DNA from: an uncultured Eubacteriales bacterium
GTDB lineage: Bacteria; Bacillota; Clostridia; Oscillospirales; Acutalibacteraceae
Assembly (NCBI GenBank): GCA_949292775.1
Contig: CASFBL010000016.1
Location: 1 to 42,247, forward strand
DNA: 42,247 nt
Direction: 5' to 3'
The position numbers and the translations under genes were made by a program. Below the pieces are notes generated by a model. The model made no database searches, had not been told where the DNA came from, and worked only from the letters and a program-made list of their open reading frames with translations. Positions within the stretch are counted from its first letter, which is position 1, and every line of letters starts with the position of its first letter. Positions 13,846 to 27,754 of the stretch are shown piece after piece.

Positions 13846-14256
13846 TTATTTCGTGCGGCGAAGATAATCTTCCAAAATGATGACGGCGGAAACCGCATCT
13901 ACAACCGCTTTTCGCTTCTTGCCGCGCGTGTTTGTGAGGTTTAATGCGTTATGCGCGCTGACCGTTGTTAAGCGCTCATCCTGAAAATCGACAGGCAGCC
14001 CGGATTTTTCAGAAAGCAGCGCTGCAAACTCCCGGCAGGCTTGCGCGCGAAACCCCTCAGAGCCATCCATATTTTTCGGCAGCCCTAAAACCAGCTTTTG
14101 CGCTTTTTTCTCGCTCGCTATGCGGCAAATCTCATCTGCCAACGGCTCTTGTTCGGTTTGGTGGATAACCGTAACAGGTGACGCGAGCATCTGCAAGGCA
14201 TCGCAAGCGGCAATCCCCGTCCGCGCATCGCCGTAATCCACAGATAAAATCACCAT
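13846..14256 (-). CDS. ruvX: YqgF/RuvX-type Holliday junction resolvase or pre-16S rRNA nuclease
   Basis: 136 residues, the normal family length. The RNase H-like core shows LSVDYGDARTGIA at the N-terminus with the first metal-binding Asp, KLVLGLPKNMDGSEG in the middle, DERLTTVSA and VDAVSAVIILEDYL at the end. Members mature the 5' end of 16S rRNA and may resolve Holliday junctions. Its start overlaps the end of pyrD by 7 bp, so it is translated as the last gene of the pyrimidine run. Confidence 0.92.
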   Translation of the reverse strand: MVILSVDYGDARTGIAACDALQMLASPVTVIHQTEQEPLADEICRIASEKKAQKLVLGLPKNMDGSEGFRAQACREFAALLSEKSGLPVDFQDERLTTVSAHNALNLTNTRGKKRKAVVDAVSAVIILEDYLRRTK

Positions 14257-15161
14257 GGCTGCACCTTGCCGATGATGTCGGTGACAGATTTTTCGCCGTT
14301 TGCGTCTAAATAGTCGTTCAAGCCCTGAATGACCTTTAAGGGTGTATAAGCGTCGGTAAAGTTAGCCGTTCCGATTTGAATAGCGGTAGCACCAGCCAAC
14401 AGCATCTCCACAGCGTCCTCCCACTTAGCGATGCCGCCCATGCCGACCACGGGGATTTTGACACGATTTGCAACTTGCCAAACCATGCGCAGCGCAACGG
14501 GGAAAACAGCGGGCCCGGACATACCGCCGGTGTTATTTTTAAGAAGCGGACGGCGGGTGCGGATGTCAATCTTCATACCGGTAAGCGTGTTAATCAGCGA
14601 AACAGCATCTGCGCCGCCTGCTTCCGCTGCGGCCGCCATTTCCGTAATGTCGGTAACATTTGGTGTAAGTTTTACCATCAGCGGTTGTCCGGCAACAGCT
14701 TTCACCTGTTTTGTGATGTTTTCCACGCTCTTTGCAGATGTGCCAAAGGAAACGCCGCCCTCTTTCACATTCGGGCAGGAAATATTCAGCTCAATCATAT
14801 CAACCGCACTGCCCTGAAGACGGCGGACGGTTTCCACATAGTCCTCGACCTGACTGCCGGCAATATTCGCAATAACCACCAAATTCTGCTTTGCAAGAAA
14901 CGGCAGATCTTCTTTTAAAAAGGTATCAACGCCGGGGTTTTGAAGCCCGACACTGTTTAAAATACCACTGGGGGTCTCCGCGATGCGCGGCGGCAAATTA
15001 CCCGGGCGCTCATGCAGCGTTGTACCTTTGCAGGAAATACCGCCAAGACGCGAAATATCGTAAATACGGGCATATTCCTGCCCAAAGCCAAAAGTGCCGC
15101 TTGCGGTTATAACCGGATTTTTAAATTGCACACCGGCAATATTTACTTGCAGATCAGCCAT
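14250..15161 (-). CDS. pyrD: Dihydroorotate dehydrogenase B, catalytic subunit
   Basis: 303 residues from the ATG at 15161, chosen because GGGAGGT precedes it; it overlaps pyrK by 8 bp. FMN binding and catalysis are shown by KNPVITASGTFGFG, SCKGTT, NSVGLQNPGVD and IELNISCPNVKEGG, whose Cys is the catalytic base of the type 1 enzymes. PVVGMGGI and AGATAIQIGTANF bind the FMN phosphate. It oxidises dihydroorotate to orotate with electrons leaving through PyrK to NAD+. All key residues are present. Confidence 0.96.
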   Translation of the reverse strand: MADLQVNIAGVQFKNPVITASGTFGFGQEYARIYDISRLGGISCKGTTLHERPGNLPPRIAETPSGILNSVGLQNPGVDTFLKEDLPFLAKQNLVVIANIAGSQVEDYVETVRRLQGSAVDMIELNISCPNVKEGGVSFGTSAKSVENITKQVKAVAGQPLMVKLTPNVTDITEMAAAAEAGGADAVSLINTLTGMKIDIRTRRPLLKNNTGGMSGPAVFPVALRMVWQVANRVKIPVVGMGGIAKWEDAVEMLLAGATAIQIGTANFTDAYTPLKVIQGLNDYLDANGEKSVTDIIGKVQPW

Positions 15162-15921
15162 TGAAATCGACCTCCCTTGCATCAAAAACAGGTCCGTTTT
15201 TGCAAACATGACGCATATGCTCGCCGTCTTTTTCGTGTGTTTTGCAGGCACACACCAAGCACGCGCCAATACCGCAGCCCATACGCTGTTCCAAAGAAAC
15301 ATAGCATAAAACATTATTTTCTTTGCAAAGCTCTGCAACGCCTTTTAACATTGGCATAGGACCACAGGCATAAACCACACAATCGGTATCGTCTGAAAGC
15401 TTTTCACGCAGCACATCGGTCACGAAGCCTTTTGTGCCAAACGAGCCGTCGTTTGTCGTTACGCTGACACTTTGACAGCACGCTTCAAATTTGTCAAGCA
15501 AAATCACTTGTTCTTTGGAACGGAAGCCCAAAATCGCCTCGGCTTTTTCGCCATAATCCTGCGCCGCGCCAAGCATGGGCGGGCAGCCAATGCCGCCGCC
15601 GATGAAAATTGCGCGTTTGGACTTTTCCGGGAAAAAGCCGTTGCCTAAAGGTCCTAAAATGTTGATTTCATCGCCTGCTTTGCGTTGCGCAAGCCAGGCT
15701 GTTCCCTCGCCGCGCACCTCAAAAACCAGTGTAATTGTACCGTTTTCCTGGTCGATTTCGCTAATGGAAATGGGGCGCCGCAAGGTTTTTTCCCCACACT
15801 GAATGTTGACAAATCTGCCGCACCAGCTCTCGTTTGCCAAATCTTTGCAAGCAATTACAAAGCTGTAAGTTGTTGCGTTCAGCTGGCGGACAGACTGGAT
15901 TTTATAAAATGACTGAAGCAT
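15154..15921 (-). CDS. pyrK: Dihydroorotate dehydrogenase B, electron-transfer subunit
   Basis: 255 residues. The FAD-binding beta-barrel has LRRPISISEID; the NAD domain has AIFIGGGIGCPPMLG and VVYACGPMPMLKGVAE. The C-terminal [2Fe-2S] site is CGIGACLVCACKT with a fourth Cys in HVCKNGPVF. It passes electrons from PyrD FMN to NAD+. It lies 15 bp after carB and overlaps pyrD, a fixed pairing in Firmicutes. Confidence 0.96.
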   Translation of the reverse strand: MLQSFYKIQSVRQLNATTYSFVIACKDLANESWCGRFVNIQCGEKTLRRPISISEIDQENGTITLVFEVRGEGTAWLAQRKAGDEINILGPLGNGFFPEKSKRAIFIGGGIGCPPMLGAAQDYGEKAEAILGFRSKEQVILLDKFEACCQSVSVTTNDGSFGTKGFVTDVLREKLSDDTDCVVYACGPMPMLKGVAELCKENNVLCYVSLEQRMGCGIGACLVCACKTHEKDGEHMRHVCKNGPVFDAREVDFNG

Positions 15922-15936
15922 GATATCTCCTTTAAA

Positions 15937-18933
15937 TCAAAGCGGTTGTACGCGGATTTCTTCCACAACCTCGTTTTTCGCAAGACAATTTGCAAATGCA
16001 GTCGCCATTTCCACAGACGGCAGAACCGGGATTCTTCTAAGCAGAGCAGTACGGCGAATTCGCACATCGTCAGAGTTTTGCTTGGGACCGGACTCTGCGG
16101 TCGAAACAAGGTAGGAAAGCTTGTTTTTGAGAATCAAAGTCAGCGTATTGGGCGCGCCCTCGTGAATCTTGCGCACGGCATTTGCCGCCACATGGTTTGC
16201 ATTGAGCAGTTTTGCTGTATTGGAGGTCGCATAAATCTTGAAGTCTTGCTTTAAGAAAGCATCTGCCAAATCGACGCTTGCCTGTTTGTCGGAATCGGCA
16301 ACCGAAACCAGCACACCGCCGGTGCGTTTGATGCGCATGCCGGAAGCTACAAATCCTTTCAACAGTGCTTCTTCAAATGTGTCGGCAACACCCATGACTT
16401 CACCGGTCGATTTCATTTCACCGCCAAGCTGAACATCGGTGCCCTCAAGCTGTTCAAAGCTGAAAACCGGCACACGCACATAAGACCGCTGCGGCTCTTT
16501 GTAAAGACCTGTACCGATACCAATATCACGCAAAGACTCCCCGAGCATTAGGCGGGTAGCAAATTCGATAATCGGCAGTGCGGTCGCTTTCGTTAGGAAC
16601 GGGATGTTGCGTGTCGCAACCGCGCTCGCTTCGGTAACATAGACCTCGTTGTCATACACCACAAACTGCAAATTCAAAAGCCCTTTGATTTTAAGGCGGC
16701 GCACCAAGCGGCCGGTAAACTCGACAATTTCTTCTTTCACCGCCGTTGTAAGCGTTACAGACGGATACACGCTAACGGAGTCGCCGGAATGAACCTGCGC
16801 TTTTTCTATATGCTCACAAATACCTGGAATTAAGAAATCTTCCCCGTCAGTCAGCACATCGACCTGTGCGCCCTTGCCGACTAAAACTCTTCGGTTATTG
16901 GTATGACGGATATTTAAGCTGTCAAGGATATCGAAAAACTCAATTTTATTTTTAAGCATTCTGTGTGCTTCTGCATCAGCGCCATAAACTTGCACGCCCA
17001 TTTTTCGAAGTGCTTCTGATTTACGAAGCGCATTGCCGCCGCCGAAAATCAAAATTGCACCGTCGGGCTTTTCCGTCTCTGCCACATGGCAAATGTCCTC
17101 TTCGGTTATGGGGTCGGCGTAAAGCTTATCTGCCGCGGCAAAATCGGTGGTGTTGGCAGCAGGGTTATTATTAAGCATTACGGTTTCATAACCGAAATCG
17201 GAAAGCGTGCGCAAAGCCTGAAACGCAGCGTAGTCGCGGTCGGTGCCGAGTCCTATGGAAGTAGGACCGGAGCCAACAACTAAAATTTTCTTTTTCTTTT
17301 GTGGGTGGGCTTTTAAATACATCGCCGCCTCGTTGTCTTCATCCCACGCAGAATAGAAATAAGGCTTCTGCACATCAAATTCCGCTGCACAGGTATCCAC
17401 AGTATTATAGGAAGCATTTGCAGAAAACGGTAATTCTTCGAGGTCGGCAAGCTTCATGATTACGCTGTCTAAAAAGCCGAGCGCTTTTGCGCGGTAATAG
17501 ACTTCTTCGGTAAAGTCTGATGCGATAAGCGCTTCCATATCGGCAATATTTTTAAACTTAGAAAGGAAGAAATTGTCTATGTCTGTAAGCGCGTGGATTT
17601 CTTCCAGCGGCATGTTGCGGCGCACCGCTTCATACACAGTGAAAATACGCTCGTCATCGCGCACACAAAGCTGTTCCTTAATTTCCTCATCGGATTTCAA
17701 CCGCAACTTTGGCAAAGCCAAATGCTCGGTTTTTGGATTTATAGAGCGAATGGCCTTTAGCAAAGCCAGTTCAAAGCCTGTACCGATAGCAAACGCTTCG
17801 CCGGTGGACTTCATTGTGTCGTCAAGTACACGATAAGCGTTATCGAAATTTTCAAAAGACCATTTCGGCACGCGAACAGCACAATAGTCGATTGCCGGTT
17901 CATTTGCCGCCGTTGTCACGCCGGTAATATCATTCCGAATTTCAAACAGCTTATATCCCAGCGCAATTTTGGCGCAAACCGCCGCAATCGGGTAGCCGGT
18001 AACTTTAGAAATAAGCGCCGTCGTGCGATTGAGCTGTGGCTCAACATCCAAAACAATATAATCCCCGGTCTGCGGATGCAGCGCAAATCGAACTAGACAG
18101 CTGCCTGCAATTTGCAAATACCGGGCAATTTTGCGCGCTGCTCGGCGCAGGCGAGACATTTCATTATCCGTCAAGGTCTGGGCGGGCAGAACAACCACAC
18201 TGTCGCCGGAATGGATGCCGACTGTATCTAAGTTTTCCGTACTGCAAACGCTGATGCAATTATCGTAGGCATCACGAATGCAGGCAAATTCAATTTCTTT
18301 ATAGCCGCCGATGAATTTTTGAATCAGCACCTGCCCGACAAGGGATTTTTCTGCACAGGACGAGAATGCCGTTTTCAAAGCAGCCTTATCCGAACAACAG
18401 ATAAACGCCCCTGCATCGGCAGAGAATGCAGCTTTGATGCAAACCGGGTATCCGGCCTTTTCAGCGAATCCCGCAGCTTCCTCGGCGGAGTTGACAATGC
18501 CGGAGGGCAAAAACGGTTCCCCGGCGTCGCGCAGCATGGTTTGCAAAGCCTGCGCGTTGCGCACACTCTTAATCACTTCCGGCTGCGCGCCCAAAAGCAC
18601 TGCGTGATGCTCATCTAAATAGCCGTTTTGCGCAAGCTCCAAGCAAATTTCAAGACCGGTTTTGCCGCCCGCAGTCGCAAGCACGCCGTCCGGCTGTTCT
18701 AACTCAATAATTTTTTTGACTGTCTCCCCGTTTAACGGCTCGACATAAACTTTATCGACAAGCTGTTTGTCCGTCATGACCGTCGCGGGATTGGAATTCA
18801 CGACAACAACCTCGATACCCTCGTTTTTCAGAGTGCGGCACATTTGCGTACCGGCATAGTCGAATTCACTGGACTGCCCAATGACAACCGGCCCTGCACC
18901 GATGACCAGAATTTTCCGAAATGTCTGTTTCAT
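15937..18933 (-). CDS. carB: CarB homologue with degenerate ATP-grasp halves (probable pseudo-carbamoyl-phosphate synthase)
   Basis: 998 residues against about 1070 for active CarB; one uninterrupted frame. Recognisable CarB text runs throughout: EFDYAGTQ, NSNPATVMTD, GIHSGDSVVVLPAQTLTD, TVDTCAAEF, KSTGEVMGVADTFEEAL, and a MGS-type allosteric domain from about 870 (KIYATSNTAKLL, RKIHEG). In the first ATP-grasp half the loop normally RPSFTMGGSGGG reads KAAFSADAGAF (167-177), and the metal ligands Gln-Glu-Asn read R282, D296 and E298, with NPR changed to EPQ. In the second half the text jumps from LNIRHTNN to RRVLVGKG at about 679-682. This removes about 65 residues including the usual RPSYVLGGRAM ATP loop, and EVNPRA is replaced by EASAVA. 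Neither half should make carbamoyl phosphate normally. It overlaps carA by 4 bp. Confidence 0.85.
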   Translation of the reverse strand: MKQTFRKILVIGAGPVVIGQSSEFDYAGTQMCRTLKNEGIEVVVVNSNPATVMTDKQLVDKVYVEPLNGETVKKIIELEQPDGVLATAGGKTGLEICLELAQNGYLDEHHAVLLGAQPEVIKSVRNAQALQTMLRDAGEPFLPSGIVNSAEEAAGFAEKAGYPVCIKAAFSADAGAFICCSDKAALKTAFSSCAEKSLVGQVLIQKFIGGYKEIEFACIRDAYDNCISVCSTENLDTVGIHSGDSVVVLPAQTLTDNEMSRLRRAARKIARYLQIAGSCLVRFALHPQTGDYIVLDVEPQLNRTTALISKVTGYPIAAVCAKIALGYKLFEIRNDITGVTTAANEPAIDYCAVRVPKWSFENFDNAYRVLDDTMKSTGEAFAIGTGFELALLKAIRSINPKTEHLALPKLRLKSDEEIKEQLCVRDDERIFTVYEAVRRNMPLEEIHALTDIDNFFLSKFKNIADMEALIASDFTEEVYYRAKALGFLDSVIMKLADLEELPFSANASYNTVDTCAAEFDVQKPYFYSAWDEDNEAAMYLKAHPQKKKKILVVGSGPTSIGLGTDRDYAAFQALRTLSDFGYETVMLNNNPAANTTDFAAADKLYADPITEEDICHVAETEKPDGAILIFGGGNALRKSEALRKMGVQVYGADAEAHRMLKNKIEFFDILDSLNIRHTNNRRVLVGKGAQVDVLTDGEDFLIPGICEHIEKAQVHSGDSVSVYPSVTLTTAVKEEIVEFTGRLVRRLKIKGLLNLQFVVYDNEVYVTEASAVATRNIPFLTKATALPIIEFATRLMLGESLRDIGIGTGLYKEPQRSYVRVPVFSFEQLEGTDVQLGGEMKSTGEVMGVADTFEEALLKGFVASGMRIKRTGGVLVSVADSDKQASVDLADAFLKQDFKIYATSNTAKLLNANHVAANAVRKIHEGAPNTLTLILKNKLSYLVSTAESGPKQNSDDVRIRRTALLRRIPVLPSVEMATAFANCLAKNEVVEEIRVQPL

Positions 18934-20012
18934 GCGCGCACCTCCTTCATTGTTTCCAAAAAGCTGTCAAAAATCCAAGATGTACTGCTGTCGCGGTCGC
19001 CGGACGGTGTAAACTGCACGCCTACGCCCGGAAACGCTTTAAACCGAAGTCCCTCGACCGAATTATCATTGATATTGCTGAAAATAATGTCCGCCGTTTC
19101 AGGAAGAACGCTATCGCGCTCTACGCAGTACCCGTGGTTTTGGTCGGTTACCATCAAACGGTCGGTTTTCTCAATCAGAACCGGCTGATTGGAGCCTCTG
19201 TGCCCCTGCGGCATTTTGACAATTTTCGCACCAACGGCAAGTGACAACATCTGATAGCCAAGCCCGATTGCAAGCACCGGTATTCCGAGTTTTATAATGT
19301 CACGGATATGCTCGATAAGCTCAGGATTGTCGTCCGGATCAGCCGGACCATCGGCAAGCAAAATGCCGTTGGGTGAAAGCGCCGCAATTTGCTCAGCTGT
19401 ATAGTCTGCGGGAAGAATATCCAACGAACAGCCGCGCGAAGTTAAGGCTTCAAGCGTTTTTCGCGGGAATCCATAGTCCAGAACGGCGACTCTTAGCTCT
19501 GCACCCGGTGTTACAATTTGCTCAGGCGCTTTGACGGTAATTGCCTCAACGGCACCGGAAATGGTGTATTCTTGGATTTTCTCTAACAGTTCTTCACGAT
19601 TTTGCAAGCTGTCGGTAATAGCGCCTTTCATATAGCCTTTATCACGCAGCGCGCGCGTCAAACGGCGCGTATCAATCCCATAGATACCAACAATCTCCTG
19701 TTCCCGCAGATAGGCGTCTAAAGAGAGTGCGCCCTCACCGGACACATCGCACCATTCGCGGACAATATAACCGTTGGCCATGATTTCAGAATCTTTTCGA
19801 GCGTGTGAAACGCCGCGGTTGCCGACCAAAGGATAGGTTTGTGCAACAATCTGCCCATAATAGGTCGGGTCAGACAAAAGCTCTTCATAGGAAGCCGTGC
19901 AGGTATTGAAAACGACTTCTCCAATTGCCGTTCCGGATTTTCCCATGGAATAACCCGAAAATTCTGTTCCGTCCTCTAAAAGCAGATAGGCTTTTTTGAT
20001 TTGCTGCGTCAT
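18930..20012 (-). CDS. carA: CarA homologue with dead glutaminase site
   Basis: 360 residues, the normal length. The CarA N-terminal domain is clear (YLLLEDGTEFSGYSMG, GEVVFNT, LLSDPTYYGQIVAQTYPLVGNRGV, GIYGIDTRRLTRALR). The class I amidotransferase domain is also clear (LLADGPADPDDNP, GHRGSNQPV, DQNHGYCVE, NDNSVEGLRFKAFPGVGVQ). The catalytic triad is gone: GICLGHQ reads AIGLGYQ with Gly at 250 (codon GGG, 19263-19265), and HPE reads TPS at 335-337. It should not release ammonia from glutamine. Eighteen bp after pyrF and overlapping carB, it is still organised as an active operon gene. Confidence 0.88.
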   Translation of the reverse strand: MTQQIKKAYLLLEDGTEFSGYSMGKSGTAIGEVVFNTCTASYEELLSDPTYYGQIVAQTYPLVGNRGVSHARKDSEIMANGYIVREWCDVSGEGALSLDAYLREQEIVGIYGIDTRRLTRALRDKGYMKGAITDSLQNREELLEKIQEYTISGAVEAITVKAPEQIVTPGAELRVAVLDYGFPRKTLEALTSRGCSLDILPADYTAEQIAALSPNGILLADGPADPDDNPELIEHIRDIIKLGIPVLAIGLGYQMLSLAVGAKIVKMPQGHRGSNQPVLIEKTDRLMVTDQNHGYCVERDSVLPETADIIFSNINDNSVEGLRFKAFPGVGVQFTPSGDRDSSTSWIFDSFLETMKEVRA

Positions 20013-20030
20013 AAGGTTTTCCCCTTTTGT

Positions 20031-20948
20031 TTATTTTAAAACGCTGTTGATTTCATCGCGCATACGAATTGCTTCGTCCCGCGCAGCTTTTGCGTAGTCC
20101 GTTTCAGCGTAGTCACCTTTTTTATAAGCGCACATAATTCCGCGGGATGAATTGATAACTGCACCGCGGCCGTCTTTATCAAACGCCGGAGCAACATCTT
20201 TGGCACCGCCGCCCTGCGCACCGTAGCCGGGCACTAAAAAGAAGGTATGCGGCAAAGCTTCACGCAGTTCGGAAAGCTGCTGCGGATAAGTCGCACCGAC
20301 AACCGCGCCGACCGCTGAATATCCATATTTGCCGCGGGTATCCCCTCCCCATTTTTCACACATCGCGCCCATGGTGCGGTAAACGGTGTTGCCCTCCAAC
20401 ACCTTGTCCTGCAACTCACCGGAAGAGGGATTTGAGGTTTTGACCAAAACGAAAATACCCTTATCCTGTTCGCGGCAAATCGGCAAAAGCGGCGCAACAC
20501 CATCCGTTCCGAGATAGCCGTTGACAGTCAGCGCATCACCGTCAAACGGTGCATAGCTTGCTTCCCCGACCGAAACTTTTCCCAAATGGGCGGCTGCATA
20601 TGCCTCCATGGTGGAGCCAATGTCATTGCGCTTGCCGTCGGTAATGACAAACATACCTTTGTTTTTGGCATAGCGAATGGTTTCATACAATGCACGAACG
20701 CCCTGCCAGCCGTACATTTCATAATAGGCACACTGCGGTTTTACCGCCGGGACAATATCACAAAGTGCGTCAATAAGACCTTTGTTGAAAGTTAAAAGAG
20801 CATCTGCCGCTCCCTCAAGCGTAAAGCCGAATTTTTCGAAAGACTGTTTGCGGATATATTCCGGCACATAGTCAAGCTTCGGGTCAAGACCCGCAACAGT
20901 TGGATTCTTTTTTTCGCCGATTGCTTCAATCAGTCTGTCAAACCCCAT
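20031..20948 (-). CDS. pyrF: Orotidine 5'-phosphate decarboxylase, type 2
   Basis: 305 residues from the ATG at 20948, with AAGGGAG upstream; it overlaps pyrC by 11 bp. VAGLDPKLDYVPEYI at the N-terminus, VPAVKPQCAYYEMYG and the catalytic FVITDGKRNDIGSTMEAYA with the Lys/Asp array identify the longer type 2 family. VPGYGAQGGGAKD and INSSRGIMCAY bind the phosphate. It converts OMP to UMP, the last step of the pathway. Confidence 0.96.
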   Translation of the reverse strand: MGFDRLIEAIGEKKNPTVAGLDPKLDYVPEYIRKQSFEKFGFTLEGAADALLTFNKGLIDALCDIVPAVKPQCAYYEMYGWQGVRALYETIRYAKNKGMFVITDGKRNDIGSTMEAYAAAHLGKVSVGEASYAPFDGDALTVNGYLGTDGVAPLLPICREQDKGIFVLVKTSNPSSGELQDKVLEGNTVYRTMGAMCEKWGGDTRGKYGYSAVGAVVGATYPQQLSELREALPHTFFLVPGYGAQGGGAKDVAPAFDKDGRGAVINSSRGIMCAYKKGDYAETDYAKAARDEAIRMRDEINSVLK

Positions 20949-22239
20949 AGTTTTTCTCCCTTTCATCATCAAAAACAATTTCACCGTTATAAACGGTCAT
21001 TTTCACTTTAGATTGCAGCTTTCTGCCTTTGAACACCGCATTTTTAGATTTTCCGTGCAGGCGTTCCGGGTCAACAAGCCAGGTTTCGTGCTCATCAATC
21101 AAAATCAAATCTGCCGGTGCACCCACACGCAATGTGCCGAGCTCGCGCGACAAAATTTTGGCGGGCAAGGTGCTCATGCGGTAAATGAGCTCAGAAACCG
21201 ACAAAAGCCCTGTCGCAACCAGCGCGGTATAAGCTGCGGAAAAAGAAGTCTCCATACCGATAACACCATTTGGTGCGCGGAGAAAATCGGATTTTTCCAA
21301 AGGCGTATGCGGTGCGTGATCGGTAGCAATCACATCCAAAACGCCATCAACAAGCGCCTTTTGAATCTCCTGTCGGTCAGCTTCAGAACGAAGCGGCGGA
21401 TTCATGCGATAGTCTGCGTCTTTCGTGCGCAGCATTTCATCGTGCAGCATAAAATAATGCGGTCCGGTTTCTGCCGTTATGGAAAGTCCTCGGCGTTTGG
21501 CGTCAGCAATCAGTGCGACGCTGCCAGCTGTGCTGACATGGCAAATGTGCAGTCTGGTATTTTCGGGCGCGGACATCAGCAAGGCGATTTCTCGCGCTGT
21601 TCCGACATCTTCCGCGGCATTTGGAATGCCGGGTATGCCGAGTTCCCGAGAGACTGCACCCTCATTTATTTTGCCGCCGGAAGAAAGTGACTGGTCTTCT
21701 GTGTGGGCAAAAATCGGCACATTGAGCTGTGCCGCCTGCCGCATGGCTTTTGCCATCAACGCCGCCGTTGCCACAGGCACTCCATCGTCGGAAAAAGCGC
21801 ACGCACCTGCCTTTTTTAGGGCAGGCATATCGGTAAGTTCTTTGCCGTCAAGGCCTTTTGTGATAGCTGCGACCGGCAAAACACGCGCTTTAGCGTTTTT
21901 TGCTTTTTCAAGAATATAGGCAATTGTCTCCGGCGTATCACAAGCCGGCTTGGTGTTGGGCATGGCACAAAGCGTGGTAACGCCCCCTGCCGCAGCAGCT
22001 GCACAGCCGGTTAAAATATCTTCTTTATCTGTAAAGCCCGGATCGCGTAAATGCGTATGCAAGTCAATAAGCCCCGGGGCTAAAATTAGCCCCGAAGCAT
22101 CAATAACTTTAGCATCGTCAGCCGATAAACCTTTCCCAACGGCGGCAATTTTACCGTCGCGGCAAAGCAGATCGGAAACAACATCCATATTTTGCGAGGG
22201 GTCAATCACCCGCGCATTTTGAAACAGAAAAGCTGACAT
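20938..22239 (-). CDS. pyrC: Dihydroorotase, type I
   Basis: 433 residues from the ATG at 22239, preceded by AAAGAGGG; the open frame extends 80 codons upstream into the PBP gene but that part is basic, repetitive and unlike the family. Zinc ligands are seen in LIDLHTHLRDPG (HxH), IFAHTED, LHICHVST and the catalytic IATDHAPH; AFSDDGVPV is the type I signature. It closes carbamoyl aspartate to dihydroorotate. Only 19 bp separate it from the PBP stop. Confidence 0.96.
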   Translation of the reverse strand: MSAFLFQNARVIDPSQNMDVVSDLLCRDGKIAAVGKGLSADDAKVIDASGLILAPGLIDLHTHLRDPGFTDKEDILTGCAAAAAGGVTTLCAMPNTKPACDTPETIAYILEKAKNAKARVLPVAAITKGLDGKELTDMPALKKAGACAFSDDGVPVATAALMAKAMRQAAQLNVPIFAHTEDQSLSSGGKINEGAVSRELGIPGIPNAAEDVGTAREIALLMSAPENTRLHICHVSTAGSVALIADAKRRGLSITAETGPHYFMLHDEMLRTKDADYRMNPPLRSEADRQEIQKALVDGVLDVIATDHAPHTPLEKSDFLRAPNGVIGMETSFSAAYTALVATGLLSVSELIYRMSTLPAKILSRELGTLRVGAPADLILIDEHETWLVDPERLHGKSKNAVFKGRKLQSKVKMTVYNGEIVFDDEREKNYGV

Positions 22240-22258
22240 GAATTCCCTCTTTCCAAAA

Positions 22259-24574
22259 TTATGCCGCCGGCGTTTCACCGGTATTCGGTTCTGTGGCAGG
22301 CGCAGTAGTTGCCGGCGCGGCAGTCGTTGTTTCACCCGAAGGTGCCGTTGTACCTTCGCCGCCGCTGCCGGAAGCTGCCGTTGTCGTTTCTGGAACTGAA
22401 GCACCGGTACAGGAAGCGCAATAGCCAGGCATGTTATTCTTGGAATACCATCCCATTGCCTTGCTTTGGCAGTTATCACTCGCTAAAAGCCCAGACACGG
22501 TGCAATAAGCATGCTGTTCGACAATAGGCGAATGTGTTTCAAAATCTTTGCGTTCCAGCTTTTTATGAATCCGGTTCATGACCTCATCAAAAATCTTGGC
22601 AGATGGGTTGCCGGAAACATAGTTGGAAAGCGATTTCTGAATATCACAGCCGAACCAAACAGCAGCAATGTAATACGGTGTACCACCGACAACCCAACGG
22701 TCATAGTCGTCGGTAGTCGTACCCGTTTTTGCAAACAGCACAGAGTTTTTCAGTGCGTAATTGCGCATGGTTGCTTCCCCTGCCGCATCGGTAACAACAG
22801 TTTGCAGCAGCTTATTCATAATGTCAGCGGTATCAGCACCCATAATTTGGTCGCCTTCGGTCTCGTCATGCTGCAGCAGTACTTCTGTGCCCGTGGAATT
22901 GGTAACTTTATAATAGCAATACGGCTCATAATATTTACCGCCGTTGCCAAACGCCGCGTAGGCTGCCGCCATCTGCAAGGTGGAAACACCTTTATAGGTA
23001 CCGCCGACCGCCAGAGACGACGCGTTGATATCTGTGGGGTCAACAAGAGTCGAAAGACGGAATTTCTGCGTGGCAAAATCAAAGCTCTTTTGATAGCCCA
23101 TCTGCCGCAGGATTTGCGCGGGAACGGTATTGTAGGACTTACAGATAGCCTTTTGCACATTGACATAAGAATCGGGCGACCCCGGGTCATTACCGTAGTT
23201 TACGGGGCCGTAGCCGCCGTTTTTGCCATCTGTATAATAATTCGGAATACCGTAGTTCTTGACTTTTGTGCTCCAGGTAACATATTTATTTTCAATGGCA
23301 GGCGCATAAATCGTCAGCGGCTTAATGGCAGAACCCGGCTGACGGTAAGAGTTCGCCGCCCGGTTAAGGCCGCGGTTTTCCGTCTTTTCCCCTGCCCCAC
23401 CGACCATGGCAACAATTCTGCCGCTGTAATCCATAATGGTCATAGCGGACTGCGCATCATCGATTTTTTTGTTGTATTTCGGGAAAGATATTTTATTGAC
23501 ATACACGGTTTCCAGCGTATCCTGAATATCCATATCCACAGCGGAATAAATGCGCAGGCCACCGGAATAAATCATAGAGGACGCCTGTGAACGAGTGTAG
23601 CCGTATTTGTCCATCAGGTCTTCAATTACGCTTTGAATGACATAGTCGACATAATAGCTTTGAATCTTGGTCTCAGTCTGTGCCTGTTGGGAAGCGAGGT
23701 CGCCGGAGGGCACATAATCTTCGCTGTTGGTAAAGACCATTTTATAAGCCACTGCTTCGTCATACTCATCCTGCGTGATCATTTCCTCTTCCAGCATCAT
23801 GTCGAGGCAATAGAGCTGACGCGTGCGGTTCTTGTCCGGGTGCAGGAGCGGGTCGTTAGAAGACGGCGCTTTCGTAATCGCGGCGAGGGACGCACATTCC
23901 GCAAGATTTAAATCCTGCACATTTTTGCCGAAATATTTTTCTGCCGCCGTCTGCACACCATAGCATCCATGGCTCATATACACCGTATTCATATAGGCTT
24001 CCAAAACCGTTTCTTTGGAAACATTTTTTTCAAGGTTCAGTGCCATGAGGATTTCATAAAACTTACGGTTGATTGTTCTCTTGTTTTCACCGGTCAGGTT
24101 TTTAATAAGCTGCTGCGTCAGCGTGGAACCACCGGTAGAACCGCCGTCGTGGAAAACCGCAGAAAAAGTTCTGAACCAGTCAACACCGTTATGATTCGGG
24201 AAGCGTTTATCCTCTAATGCGACATAAGCGTCGGCAAGATTTTGAGGAATTACGCTTTCGTCCGGATTGGTGCTGTAAGTGACCCAAACACGGTTCTGCT
24301 CACCGTAAAGACGGGTAAGCTCCACAGACTCCTTATTGGAATCATAGGCATAAATAATGGTTGTCTGGTCTTGATTTTCCTTGTATTCTTCCAAATTGAT
24401 CTTGGGCTCACCGTTGACATAGGAAACCATAAAGGACAGCAGATAAATACCGACAATCATAATCGTCAGCAGTGCTGTCAGGGCAAGCGCAAGTAAAACC
24501 GAAATCCGCGTTCTGTTTTTCTTGCTGATCGGCTTATGTTTACGCACATTGGATTTTTGCGATTTGGATGCCAT
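22259..24574 (-). CDS. Class A penicillin-binding protein (PBP1-type)
   Basis: 771 residues. A basic cytosolic tail and one membrane segment (24-50) are followed by a GT51 glycosyltransferase with EDKRFPNHNG (catalytic E121) and GGSTLTQQLIKN, then a transpeptidase with SAIK (S415, K418), SYN (480-482) and KTGTT (616-620). The last 45 residues are a Thr/Ala/Pro/Gly tail. It polymerises and crosslinks peptidoglycan outside the membrane. GGAGG precedes the ATG. The gene is the first of the run leading into pyrC. Confidence 0.95.
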   Translation of the reverse strand: MASKSQKSNVRKHKPISKKNRTRISVLLALALTALLTIMIVGIYLLSFMVSYVNGEPKINLEEYKENQDQTTIIYAYDSNKESVELTRLYGEQNRVWVTYSTNPDESVIPQNLADAYVALEDKRFPNHNGVDWFRTFSAVFHDGGSTGGSTLTQQLIKNLTGENKRTINRKFYEILMALNLEKNVSKETVLEAYMNTVYMSHGCYGVQTAAEKYFGKNVQDLNLAECASLAAITKAPSSNDPLLHPDKNRTRQLYCLDMMLEEEMITQDEYDEAVAYKMVFTNSEDYVPSGDLASQQAQTETKIQSYYVDYVIQSVIEDLMDKYGYTRSQASSMIYSGGLRIYSAVDMDIQDTLETVYVNKISFPKYNKKIDDAQSAMTIMDYSGRIVAMVGGAGEKTENRGLNRAANSYRQPGSAIKPLTIYAPAIENKYVTWSTKVKNYGIPNYYTDGKNGGYGPVNYGNDPGSPDSYVNVQKAICKSYNTVPAQILRQMGYQKSFDFATQKFRLSTLVDPTDINASSLAVGGTYKGVSTLQMAAAYAAFGNGGKYYEPYCYYKVTNSTGTEVLLQHDETEGDQIMGADTADIMNKLLQTVVTDAAGEATMRNYALKNSVLFAKTGTTTDDYDRWVVGGTPYYIAAVWFGCDIQKSLSNYVSGNPSAKIFDEVMNRIHKKLERKDFETHSPIVEQHAYCTVSGLLASDNCQSKAMGWYSKNNMPGYCASCTGASVPETTTAASGSGGEGTTAPSGETTTAAPATTAPATEPNTGETPAA

Positions 24575-24747: not shown

Positions 24748-25068
24748 ATGCAAAAGACTTTACTTCGTTGTATCCTAATCTCATTGTGTGCTCTGGTAAT
24801 TTTGAGCCTGTCCGCCTTTTTTTCGTTAAACGCCGGAGAAACACCGGCAGCAGCAGAAAAAACAAACGAGACTGTCGCGCCGAAATATACTTTTTCACAA
24901 TATCAAGGGCAGTTGGCGCTCTATGAAAGAGGCTTTGCCATGCCCGTTGAAATTTATGATGTATATTTGGAAATGCTGCCGCAAGAGGAACAGCAAAAAA
25001 TCATCACAGGAATCCCGGCGCAGACAGATGAAGAAATTCAGAAAATCATTGAAGATTACACAAGCTGA
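24748..25068 (+). CDS. Small membrane-anchored BofC-like protein
   Basis: 106 residues from the ATG at 24748, with AAAGGAAG upstream. One N-terminal membrane segment (LLRCILISLCALVILSLSAFF) precedes an extracytoplasmic part containing YTFSQYQGQLALYERGFAMPVEIYDVYLEMLP and ending IQKIIEDYTS. That pattern resembles the C-terminal domain found in BofC and in small clostridial proteins near sporulation genes; BofC delays sigma-K processing. The link is by pattern only. A weak sigma-E-like TCATATT (24648-24654) and CATTAA (24668) lie upstream. Its last 23 bp overlap the convergent GH63-like gene. Confidence 0.55.
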   Translation: MQKTLLRCILISLCALVILSLSAFFSLNAGETPAAAEKTNETVAPKYTFSQYQGQLALYERGFAMPVEIYDVYLEMLPQEEQQKIITGIPAQTDEEIQKIIEDYTS

Positions 25069-27754
25069 TTTCCACTTGAATATTTTTCATTCCCTTCGGA
25101 AGCAGGATTTCAAACATGCCCGGGAAACGCTCTTTACAAGCACAAGGCTTATTATTCAGCATAACGCTATATTTTCCACTTTCGTTTAAAGCAACCAAAA
25201 CAGCTGCGTCTGTTTCACCGTAATTGCTGAACACCCCGGAGAATGCCGTATTGTCTTGTGAAAACGCCATATGCTCGCAATAGGTGTCAAAACCGGAGTT
25301 ACAGGTGCCCGGGCAGAAATAGGCCGCTGCCCAAAGATTGACAGGTGCAGAAAGACCGCCAAAATTGTGGAACCAGCCGCCGCGCCCGGTTTCGATACTG
25401 AACATTTCAAAGGTGTAGTAAGAATACTCCACCTCTCGTTTCCAGGCTTTCAACGCGGTTTCAGCAATACGATAAGCAAAATCCGTTTCACCGAGATCCA
25501 GCATTGTCTTCCAGACAAACCACTGGTGAGAAAGCCAAACATTGCCGTTCCAGTAACCATTGGGCAAATAATATCCTGCGGTGCGGTCCACAGCGCTGAT
25601 GCCGACCGGCGTAAACATTTCATCATCGCTTTTCAAGTGGGACAGCAAAATTTTACGCTGTTCTTCGGTTACTGCGCCTGCAATCAACGGGTAAATGCCA
25701 TCCATCGTTTTATTCAGATTTTCGCCGCTGTCGGAAAGGAACTTTCCGGTTGGATTCCCCGCATCATCATGAATGACATATGAGAAATACCCGCAGTTCT
25801 CGTCCCAGGACCAAGTCTGCAAAGCGTTGGTGATTCGGGCGATGTCTTCGTCATACTGGCACATATCCTCGGTTCGGCCGAGGTGCTCCGCAATGATTTT
25901 CAGCATTTTTGCGGCTCGAATCACCTGAGAAGAGGAAATGACCGGGGCACAGTATTTTTGAATGCCCTTCTGATACATGGCTTTTTGCGGCGGCAGATCG
26001 TCCATGCCGCTGCAATTATAGAAATAATCAAAGGTCGTCGTCATGCCGCTTTTGAATTTGGCAGTGGTGGAACCATTGATTTTGCCTGCCAAAAAGTCAT
26101 AAAACAGTTTAGCGCGATCATAGTAGGCATATAGTTCCGATTTGTCGTTCGTGCCTTTGAGCATCTCAAAATACTGATACAAATGCACAGGCACAGGAGA
26201 ACCATGCAGCAGGAAAGCATAATCCGGATTATCCTTATCGCTTAAATACATATCGAGAATGTAGTCCGCAATTTTCGGCGCGAACATAACCATGTCGAGA
26301 CCGATAAAACCGGAATCCCATGTGTAAAAGGAATCCCAGCGCTTGCCGGGCGTGTGGTGTACCACATATTCCCCGTGACAATAAAGCGGATAGACCGTGT
26401 TTTGGAACATGGCGGCGCGCAGAAGCTGATTTGAAAACGCATAGGATTCACCGGCTTTTGTGTAGCCAAGCTGTTCAAGAGACGCGGAGGCGTCCTGATA
26501 AATTTTTTCATAGGCTTCCGGGGTCTCATAAGTTGTGTCGCCATAGGAGATTACGGCATACTCCACATGGGTGGAATGCGGCGGCATGAAAATGGTGTGC
26601 ACAACGGTGTTATGATAAAAACCCGGGTCGCTGTGCTTTTCAGAGAACGAGCCGGAAAACTGCTCAAGCATGTCGCCGAAGCTTTCGTCCGGTTGGGTAA
26701 TGCGGGAAGTGGGGCTGTCTTCAAGCGCACCGGTCGGGAAATTACGGAAACGGGTATCTGCGTTAAAAGTGCGCAAAACAAACGGTTTTTCCACACCTTG
26801 ATATTGGCAGACAGTCTTTGCGCCGTCCGGATAGAGTTCTGTTTTGACCTGCGGTTCAAATGCAAGCGCTTTTTCTTCCACTTTTACAAAAGAAGCATCT
26901 TTTTCTTCAGTAATTGCCAAAAAGTCCAGTTCAATCCCGCCGGTACCTTTGGAAACCAGCTCAATATCAAATGATTTTTCGGCATTTGTAAGCTGGAACA
27001 CCGCGTTTTGCAGCTTATCAGAAGCTTTAAATACAACGGATTTACCATTTAAGGTAAATTCCGAGTCGCTATCGCCCGTTGTTCGGTAACGAACAACCAA
27101 AGCAGGCTTTTCAAAAGCAGTATCCACAGGCAAAGCATAAACGACCCTATCCCCGGCTTCCTCGCCGAATTTCGGATATTTCGGTAAAATATAGCGATTG
27201 TTGTCGCGGTCACCAAGTCCTCTGTGCCCGACAAAAGCATCGTCAAAAAATTCGCCTTTTTTCATGGCATCCATACACTGCTCGTCCCACGGGCGTTTGG
27301 TATGGTAATCATAGGAAACATAGTCTAAGGCGTCTTTGTAAAGACATTTTTGTGGCAGGGAAAGTTTCACGGCACGGCGGCACGGGAATTCAAGGCTCGA
27401 AAAGAAATTGACCAGGCAATTCTGTGTCATTTCAGAGTTATTGACAAGCTCTGTGCGAACCAAGACGCTTTCATCGCTTAGTTTCGTGAACGAAACATCG
27501 GCATATATGACATCCTTCCATTCCAAATCACAGCGGTAGGAATAATGGGAGTAATCGCTTTTCGCCGTCCACGGGTGCACACCGACCGGAATCGTCACAT
27601 TCGGCGGACAGGTATTTGTATTAGAGACCGCAGGACTCACGACCAAATCGAATCGAACGCCCTTTTCTTCTGCATGCTCCACAATTCTGGAAATACCGCT
27701 GTATTTCTTGGAATACGGCCCCCAAAGCGGCATTACTTCTGCCATTTTTGTCAT
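25046..27754 (-). CDS. GH63/MGH1-like (alpha/alpha)6 glycoside hydrolase
   Basis: 902 residues, no signal peptide, probably cytosolic. The first ~400 residues are beta-rich (FDLVVSPAVSNTNTCPPNV; VVRYRTTGDSDSEFTLNGK). The C-terminal half is an (alpha/alpha)6 barrel with GKRWDSFYTWDSGFIGLDM, TMDGIYPLIAGAV, YWNGNVWLSHQWFVWKTML and GRGGWFHNFGGLSAPVNLWAAAYF. These are typical of GH63 and related glucosidase families, with a catalytic Asp expected in the WDS motif. Substrate unknown; an alpha-gluco- or mannoside is likely from the family. It starts just downstream of the tRNA-Gly terminator. No clear promoter. Confidence 0.75.
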   Translation of the reverse strand: MTKMAEVMPLWGPYSKKYSGISRIVEHAEEKGVRFDLVVSPAVSNTNTCPPNVTIPVGVHPWTAKSDYSHYSYRCDLEWKDVIYADVSFTKLSDESVLVRTELVNNSEMTQNCLVNFFSSLEFPCRRAVKLSLPQKCLYKDALDYVSYDYHTKRPWDEQCMDAMKKGEFFDDAFVGHRGLGDRDNNRYILPKYPKFGEEAGDRVVYALPVDTAFEKPALVVRYRTTGDSDSEFTLNGKSVVFKASDKLQNAVFQLTNAEKSFDIELVSKGTGGIELDFLAITEEKDASFVKVEEKALAFEPQVKTELYPDGAKTVCQYQGVEKPFVLRTFNADTRFRNFPTGALEDSPTSRITQPDESFGDMLEQFSGSFSEKHSDPGFYHNTVVHTIFMPPHSTHVEYAVISYGDTTYETPEAYEKIYQDASASLEQLGYTKAGESYAFSNQLLRAAMFQNTVYPLYCHGEYVVHHTPGKRWDSFYTWDSGFIGLDMVMFAPKIADYILDMYLSDKDNPDYAFLLHGSPVPVHLYQYFEMLKGTNDKSELYAYYDRAKLFYDFLAGKINGSTTAKFKSGMTTTFDYFYNCSGMDDLPPQKAMYQKGIQKYCAPVISSSQVIRAAKMLKIIAEHLGRTEDMCQYDEDIARITNALQTWSWDENCGYFSYVIHDDAGNPTGKFLSDSGENLNKTMDGIYPLIAGAVTEEQRKILLSHLKSDDEMFTPVGISAVDRTAGYYLPNGYWNGNVWLSHQWFVWKTMLDLGETDFAYRIAETALKAWKREVEYSYYTFEMFSIETGRGGWFHNFGGLSAPVNLWAAAYFCPGTCNSGFDTYCEHMAFSQDNTAFSGVFSNYGETDAAVLVALNESGKYSVMLNNKPCACKERFPGMFEILLPKGMKNIQVEISLCNLQ

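Follow-up and report, generated by a model that had tools for sequence, protein, structure and literature searches.

A conserved pseudo-carbamoyl-phosphate synthase with a probable non-catalytic role in Clostridia

Carbamoyl-phosphate synthase (CPS) starts pyrimidine and arginine synthesis and is a textbook multi-site channelling enzyme. Here we describe a carA-carB pair, coding for the small and large subunit of CPS, that lies inside the pyrimidine (pyr) operon of an uncultured Eubacteriales bacterium of the family Acutalibacteraceae. The DNA analysed, called the window below, is one whole contig of 42,247 nucleotides (CASFBL010000016.1) from a genome of 2.16 Mb and 98.6% completeness; the closest named relative among the matches is Candidatus Fimenecus excrementavium (CarB identity 94%). 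All three active sites of this pair appear to be destroyed, and the protein is nevertheless maintained by selection. We therefore consider it a conserved pseudo-CPS whose function is probably non-catalytic, for instance in aid or regulation of a working copy. A first reading of this DNA from its letters alone (the sequence-only reading) had placed an unbroken but inactivated carA-carB pair within the pyr operon. Family matches and coordinates bear out this gene order, the two frames (360 and 998 codons) contain zero stops, and the tight 4-bp coupling of the two genes is confirmed by the overlap atga.

Lost active sites in a pair under purifying selection

We mapped the residues of both subunits onto E. 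coli CarAB from the annotated K-12 record, using the E. coli site numbers, some of which are named in PMC6245113. In the window CarA, the glutaminase triad is lost (C269 to Gly, H353 to Thr, E355 to Ser). The first synthetase site of CarB carries R129A, R169K, Q285R, E299D, N301E and R303Q; in the second site, R715 and D753 fall inside a deletion of about 65 residues that removes the lid, and E761, N843 and R845 read Gly, Ser and Val. Hence the proposal of three destroyed sites holds for the key residues of all three, with the reservation that E215, D238, H243, Q829 and E841 are still present. The same core is missing throughout the group of related sequences described below. All 23 pseudo-CarA have Gly in place of C269 and lack both H353 and E355, and N301, R715, N843 and R845 are lost in all 25 pseudo-CarB. 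Losses of R129, R169, Q285, E299 and R303 vary among these 25, and in three genomes (G421, G532 and G418) the second lid is shortened rather than deleted. The site losses are beyond chance, and an origin by chance or assembly artefact is ruled out by the common core losses in 25 genomes. Because the listed catalytic residues are gone, carbamoyl-phosphate synthesis by the pseudo pair is very unlikely.

Between the window genome and its nearest relative, the ratio of nonsynonymous to synonymous substitution rates (dN/dS) is 0.031 for pseudo-CarB and 0.057 for pseudo-CarA. The pyr neighbours give similar values, 0.062 for PyrC, 0.040 for PyrF, 0.056 for PyrK and 0.037 for PyrD; intact CarB has 0.022, and the ten other genes compared, these five among them, range from 0.012 (RuvX) to 0.117 (SpoIIGA). 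Seven genome pairs give whole-protein values of 0.031-0.091 for pseudo-CarB, and the six pairs with finite values for pseudo-CarA give 0.041-0.071, the seventh being saturated. Since dS is high (0.45-1.71 over pseudo-CarB), these ratios are approximate, and none of them is near 1. Low dN/dS extends to the catalytic domains of pseudo-CarB. The pseudo pair has lost its catalytic residues and is preserved by purifying selection, which by sequence fits a pseudoenzyme. A retained role, which the sequence-only reading had proposed with dN/dS near 1 as the sign of decay, is thereby strongly supported.

A second CarAB and the descent of the pseudo pair

The genome contains a second carA (C3:118356-119411, 423.7 bits) with the triad kept. 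The carB next to it is split at contig ends into C3:119431-119547 (profile positions 3-41) and C33:10687-13467 (124-1050); about 80 codons between the two pieces are unsequenced, and the catalytic residues are kept in the sequenced part. A near relative, G024, carries this second carB whole. The contig with the larger piece also holds argC, argJ, argB, argD and argF, names that we assigned from the sequences, with only ArgF identified by family search (a weaker TIGR00670 match). The sequence-only reading had noted the absence of pyrB and pyrE from the window; both are located on other contigs, pyrB at C21:44887-45783 (332 bits) and pyrE on C5 (TIGR01367, 220.9 bits against a cut-off of 150.25). 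Because the second carAB, pyrB and pyrE were found, the genome seems to code for the complete pathway even if the pseudo pair is disregarded. With this second carAB, albeit split by an assembly gap, the outcome that would have forced the window pair to be a working enzyme did not occur. The same holds more widely: among the 22 genomes of the tree described below, 21 carry a whole or nearly whole intact CarB (split in the window genome; columns 3-983 in G532), which keeps E299, N301 and N843 in all 21. The remaining one, G013, is 76% complete and shows a partial intact CarB only; G775, G779 and G786 lie outside this count.

In three of these genomes (G012, G016 and G020; loci L021, L026 and L027, positions ~440-1490), the CarA beside the arginine-type intact CarB itself lacks the triad (C269G, H353I, E355D), and its dN/dS is raised to 0.17 and 0.20 in two pairs. 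The residues suggest that the arginine-type CPS of these genomes is fed by ammonia.

A search profile built from 12 pseudo-CarB was used to scan the genus, family and class at E <= 1e-299, a threshold that distant or more eroded relatives would escape. Of the 39 genomes of the genus, 18 contain full-length, stop-free pseudo-CarB. The family scan returned 9 of 398 genomes, namely three of the genus and members of four other genera, g255 (2), g182 (1), g177 (2) and g174 (1), where the matches in the last three genomes span about two thirds of the profile. In a scan of the order at E <= 1e-100 (394 genomes, 8 of the genus), the matches listed are led by whole-profile ones from five genomes of the genus. 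The class scan matched one of 391 genomes, the window's own, in a sample whose number of carrier-genus genomes is not listed. Together with the genome of locus L050, and after merging the loci and labels that belong to one genome, the carriers total 25 (18 + 2 + 1 + 2 + 1 + 1) and include at least four other genera of the family.

In a CarB tree of the quick kind that included 22 of the 25 pseudo-CarB, these formed one group with support 100. Because their branches are long, the inner order of the group is unsure. A contribution of long branches to the grouping itself is conceivable, and the shared gene order speaks against it. With the sites mapped on relatives, much as the sequence-only reading had advised, we found a graded series of losses. 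G057 has the same operon order with intact CarAB. G366 combines a dead CarA (G/E/S at the triad) with an intact CarB. In G421, G532 and G418, CarA is dead and the nearly full-length CarB has an eroded second and a partly kept first site; L050, G532 and G421 retain much of site 1 (R169, E299, R303 and both glycines). The second lid is absent in L050, L048, G534 and G584. Within the genus, clade A has lost all three sites, and clade B still has R129, R169 and R303. This series of living forms suggests that CarA died first and the second site of CarB next. The CarA triad has also been lost in other lineages, and for this reason its loss alone is a weak character. Examples from other genera or families of the order are L135 (G366), L032 (G026) and L029 (G031), where the triad is broken and the adjoining CarB keeps its catalytic residues.

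As far as the contigs extend, the order pyrC-pyrF-[carA]-carB-pyrK-pyrD is retained by clade A and by the carriers from g255, g182, g177 and g174. Clade B has no pyr gene between pseudo-CarB and ruvX. In G016, G020, G021 and G779 of this clade, the pseudo pair sits directly between a penicillin-binding protein (PBP) gene and ruvX, with no pyrC, pyrF, pyrK or pyrD left at this place. The contig of G012 stops past pseudo-CarA, so that the absence is visible on the pyrK-pyrD side only. In G412 pseudo-CarB alone is left between the flanks, and in G584 pseudo-CarA is missing from an operon that still contains pseudo-CarB. In total, 6 of the 18 carriers in the genus have kept pseudo-CarB with all checkable pyr neighbours gone. 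A different pyrC-pyrK-pyrD-...-pyrB cluster is found elsewhere in G016, G020 and G021, with 36-42% (PyrC) and 51-54% (PyrD) identity to the window's proteins; pyrF and pyrE were identified within this cluster in G021 only. A pyrF of the window's subfamily was not found in these three genomes, and in G012, a genome with 9% contamination, it is present on another contig. Because pseudo-CarB outlasted its operon partners, and pseudo-CarA too in G412 and G584, the gene content indicates that pseudo-CarB is the core unit and that pseudo-CarA and the operon neighbours are dispensable for its retention.

Possible roles of pseudo-CarB

By descent and fold, pseudo-CarB belongs to the CPS superfamily, with the domain order, fold and CarA partner of that enzyme. 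An AlphaFold2 model, calculated from an alignment of ten pseudo-group rows plus the intact CarB of L049 (11 in total), has a mean pLDDT of 76.8 and a pTM of 0.78, with 113 of 998 residues below 50. Its best Foldseek match in the PDB is E. coli CPS (1jdb_B; TM-score 0.87 by query length, root-mean-square deviation 4.9, 35% identity), so the predicted fold is the CPS fold. To compare rates by domain, we related the log-distance of pseudo-CarB to that of the intact CarB from the same two genomes in 11 overlapping genome pairs. The ratios are 1.5-10.7 for the carboxyphosphate and 5.1-12.8 for the carbamoyl-phosphate domain, 0.9-2.5 for the oligomerisation and 1.3-2.7 for the allosteric MGS domain; in 11 of 11 pairs both catalytic domains are accelerated beyond the other two. 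Of the MGS residues, all 22 pseudo-CarB rows have K954 and T977, 21 have T974 and 17 have K993. K993 is absent from both the pseudo and the intact CarB of G012, G016, G020, G021 and G412, and present in both proteins of the other carriers where both could be read. The consulted passages of PMC6245113 name K993 of E. coli CPS for binding of uridine monophosphate (UMP). UMP sensing through MGS, one of the roles put forward by the sequence-only reading, is possible in most of the clade, but the six genomes without checkable pyr neighbours lack the K993 segment in pseudo-CarB.

These features lead us to a tentative model in which pseudo-CarB is a regulatory or architectural partner of intact CPS, a first choice to which we give somewhat less than even confidence. 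In the CarAB of an ancestral pyrC-pyrF-carA-carB-pyrK-pyrD operon, the glutaminase would have been lost before the two synthetase sites. The genomes concerned also carry an arginine-type CarAB that could supply carbamoyl phosphate, and the dead protein has been kept by purifying selection. Pseudo-CarB, with its CPS fold and its oligomerisation and MGS domains, would associate with intact CarAB and thereby alter the assembly or effector response of the latter, such that carbamoyl-phosphate supply follows pyrimidine demand. More doubtful is the specific form of this model, in which an entire dead CPS serves the arginine-type CPS as a dedicated regulatory subunit, assembles with it and places it under pyrimidine control; the literature searched describes no heteromeric CPS of this kind. 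Among the roles that had been suggested for the pair, regulation of the other CarAB appears to be the best remaining.

Several observations weigh against this model. In E. coli CPS, regulation is unaffected by oligomerisation itself (passages of PMC6245113), and because of this the formation of mixed oligomers would not be enough to account for regulation. The MGS domain has a dN/dS of 0.089 and 0.191 in two clade B pairs, and the latter value (G020-G016) is the highest of any single domain, both overall and in that pair. Within clade B, the margin by which the carboxyphosphate domain is accelerated is slim (1.46 vs 1.33; 1.56 vs 1.44), and the high ratios of the catalytic domains partly reflect the slow evolution of these domains in the intact enzyme. 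The oligomerisation domain of pseudo-CarB is among the least conserved (58% vs 64, 69 and 78% between the window genome and G005), and the fraction of columns at least 90% conserved in the pseudo rows is 0.34 in the carboxyphosphate, 0.28 in the MGS and 0.26 in the oligomerisation domain. Against six CarB of the pyr type, thirteen positions prove specific to the pseudo group (at least 90% conserved there, absent from the six), and they are not enriched in MGS (3/13, p = 0.23), so that a clustering in MGS that was apparent by eye against all intact CarB was discarded. The joint loss of K993 counts as a single event on the tree. Variation at this residue (R or N) is seen, too, in CarB of G037, G036, G028 and G022, genomes without a pseudo copy. 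Finally, the residue of clade A aligned to T1042, of the ornithine site, is Pro.

The other explanations differ in how they accommodate the same data. Remodelled domains with a new ligand-binding or catalytic function, which we regard as somewhat unlikely, would account for selection on the catalytic domains as well. They would also fit the conservation of E25, E215, D238 and R306 in 22 of 22 and of H243 and E383 in 21 of 22 pseudo rows, and the hold of L050, G532 and G421 on much of site 1. No new shared catalytic motif accompanies this conservation, only the 13 pseudo-specific positions, and site 1 residues vary even inside clade A, where position 299 is D, E, A, S or G. Also unlikely is a scaffold by which pseudo-CarAB joins PyrB, PyrC and PyrK/PyrD or guides carbamoyl phosphate to aspartate transcarbamoylase (ATCase), as in a CAD-type complex with a dead member. 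Channelling between CPS and ATCase is known elsewhere (passages of PMC6245113), an inactive dihydroorotase is needed by P. aeruginosa ATCase (abstract of PMC7053772), and the operon position retained outside clade B agrees with such a role. In clade B, the old pyr genes are gone from beside pseudo-CarB, which is nevertheless at dN/dS 0.088 and 0.091 in two pairs; given the different pyr cluster of G016, G020 and G021, partners other than the original ones would have to be assumed for a scaffold. The six genomes with no checkable pyr neighbours thus weaken the proposal of the sequence-only reading that the pair is a scaffold for the operon enzymes.

A nucleotide or amino-acid sensor that works through MGS without intact CPS, for instance on transcription or on another enzyme, strikes us as improbable. 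The near-invariant K954, T977 and T974 would suit a sensor; K993 is missing in clade B, a Pfam scan of pseudo-CarB found no DNA-binding domain, and the remainder of this large protein is likewise under selection. Least credible by far is a decaying relic, or an open frame kept solely for translation of downstream genes. Lost active sites, catalytic domains that diverge faster than in the intact copy and the loss of pseudo-CarA from two genomes are what a relic would show, but neutral decay is rejected by dN/dS values of 0.03-0.09, none of the 25 pseudo-CarB frames contains a stop, and in clade B there is no downstream pyr gene before ruvX to be served. The retention of pseudo-CarB without its operon partners counts in favour of the partner model.

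Known systems, annotation and the surrounding locus

The window pair shares subunits, domain order, predicted fold and the oligomerisation and MGS domains with bacterial CarAB (E. coli CPS, PDB 1JDB and others), and its operon order with intact pyr-operon CarAB such as that of G057. It differs from them by the absence of the glutaminase triad, both ATP-grasp sites and the second lid, and by the presence of a separate intact CarAB. Replacement of the glutaminase nucleophile is already known from vertebrate CPS1 (passages of PMC4655335), which stays an active synthetase on free ammonia, unlike the window pair with its lost synthetase sites. Dead members of the pyrimidine pathway are known as well: the pseudo-dihydroorotase of P. 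aeruginosa is a retained dead enzyme, there required for ATCase activity (abstract of PMC7053772), but it is another enzyme. No CPS paralogue lacking all three sites came up in the titles, abstract openings and passages of the open-licence PMC literature searched (including PMC6245113, PMC4655335 and PMC6022934). A lineage that lost three sites in seeming steps under purifying selection is a natural test case for functions of the CPS scaffold beyond catalysis, and it raises the possibility that a dead paralogue governs carbamoyl-phosphate supply. It also calls for care in annotation. Because pseudo-CarA passes the TIGR01368 and pseudo-CarB the NF003671 cut-off, the pair could enter metabolic models of gut Clostridia as a working CPS; with TIGR01369, pseudo-CarB scores 974.2 bits, below the cut-off of 1027 for the large-subunit family.

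On the minus strand, the genes follow in the order PBP-pyrC-pyrF-carA-carB-pyrK-pyrD-ruvX-spoIIGA (Table 1). The range 13846..24574, previously read as a pyrimidine operon, stands for its pyr/car core; PBP and ruvX at its ends are not pyrimidine genes. PyrC, PyrF, PyrK and PyrD match their NCBIfam families, with PyrC and PyrK under several equivalog cut-offs, and their catalytic motifs were assessed only by eye against known motifs.

Table 1. Positions of genes, domains and altered sites in the window
Feature	Position	Strand	Remark
PBP	22259..24574	-	Left-hand neighbour where the contig extends so far; outside the pyrimidine pathway
pyrC, dihydroorotase	20938..22239	-	NCBIfam match
pyrF (subfamily 2), orotidine monophosphate decarboxylase	20031..20948	-	NCBIfam match
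Pseudo-CarA, small subunit of CPS (360 aa) with the glutaminase triad lost	18930..20012	-	TIGR01368, 328.5 bits (cut-off 307.35)
Codon of Gly250, in place of the glutaminase nucleophile C269 of E. coli	19263..19265	-	
Codons at lost His353/Glu355, reading TPS	19002..19010	-	
4-base overlap atga, carA stop/carB start	18930..18933	-	
Pseudo-CarB, large subunit of CPS (998 aa) with both synthetase sites lost	15937..18933	-	NF003671, 989.4 bits (cut-off 599)
First ATP-grasp metal/phosphate motif E299-x-N301-x-R303, reading DVEPQ	18034..18048	-	
Oligomerisation domain PF02787, retained	17449..17673	-	73.8 bits
Junction where the second ATP-grasp lid (B) subdomain, ~65 residues, is missing	16875..16888	-	TIGR01369 columns 690-754 absent
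Second ATP-grasp motif E841-x-N843-x-R845, reading EASAV	16618..16632	-	
MGS allosteric domain PF02142, retained, with T974, T977, K993, K954	16024..16275	-	
pyrK, dihydroorotate dehydrogenase electron-transfer subunit	15154..15921	-	NCBIfam match
pyrD, dihydroorotate dehydrogenase class 1B	14250..15161	-	NCBIfam match
ruvX	13846..14256	-	Right-hand neighbour in carriers seen; outside the pyrimidine pathway

A search of the window for RNA regulators with Rfam at gathering cut-offs gave a tRNA as the sole match. Many carriers within the genus encode, as a neighbour of the locus, a 902-aa protein (window 25046-27754) for which GH94-like is a putative label.

Other unusual forms of CarB were seen in related genomes. 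In L035, L036 and L067 (G038, G014 and G001), a CarB with its catalytic residues kept lies in the order pyrC-carB-pyrK-pyrD with no adjoining CarA. A CarB of 455 codons in G010 (L064:9490-10854) consists of the first ATP-grasp half, with its motifs kept, followed directly by MGS, and the triad of the adjoining CarA is kept. In G022 (L065:7887-11900), carB continues in frame into diaminopimelate epimerase (TIGR00652, 263 bits) to give a CarB-DapF fusion; many of the CarB frames of 1325-1432 codons in our scans may be fusions of this type, of which the G022 frame is the one that was scanned.

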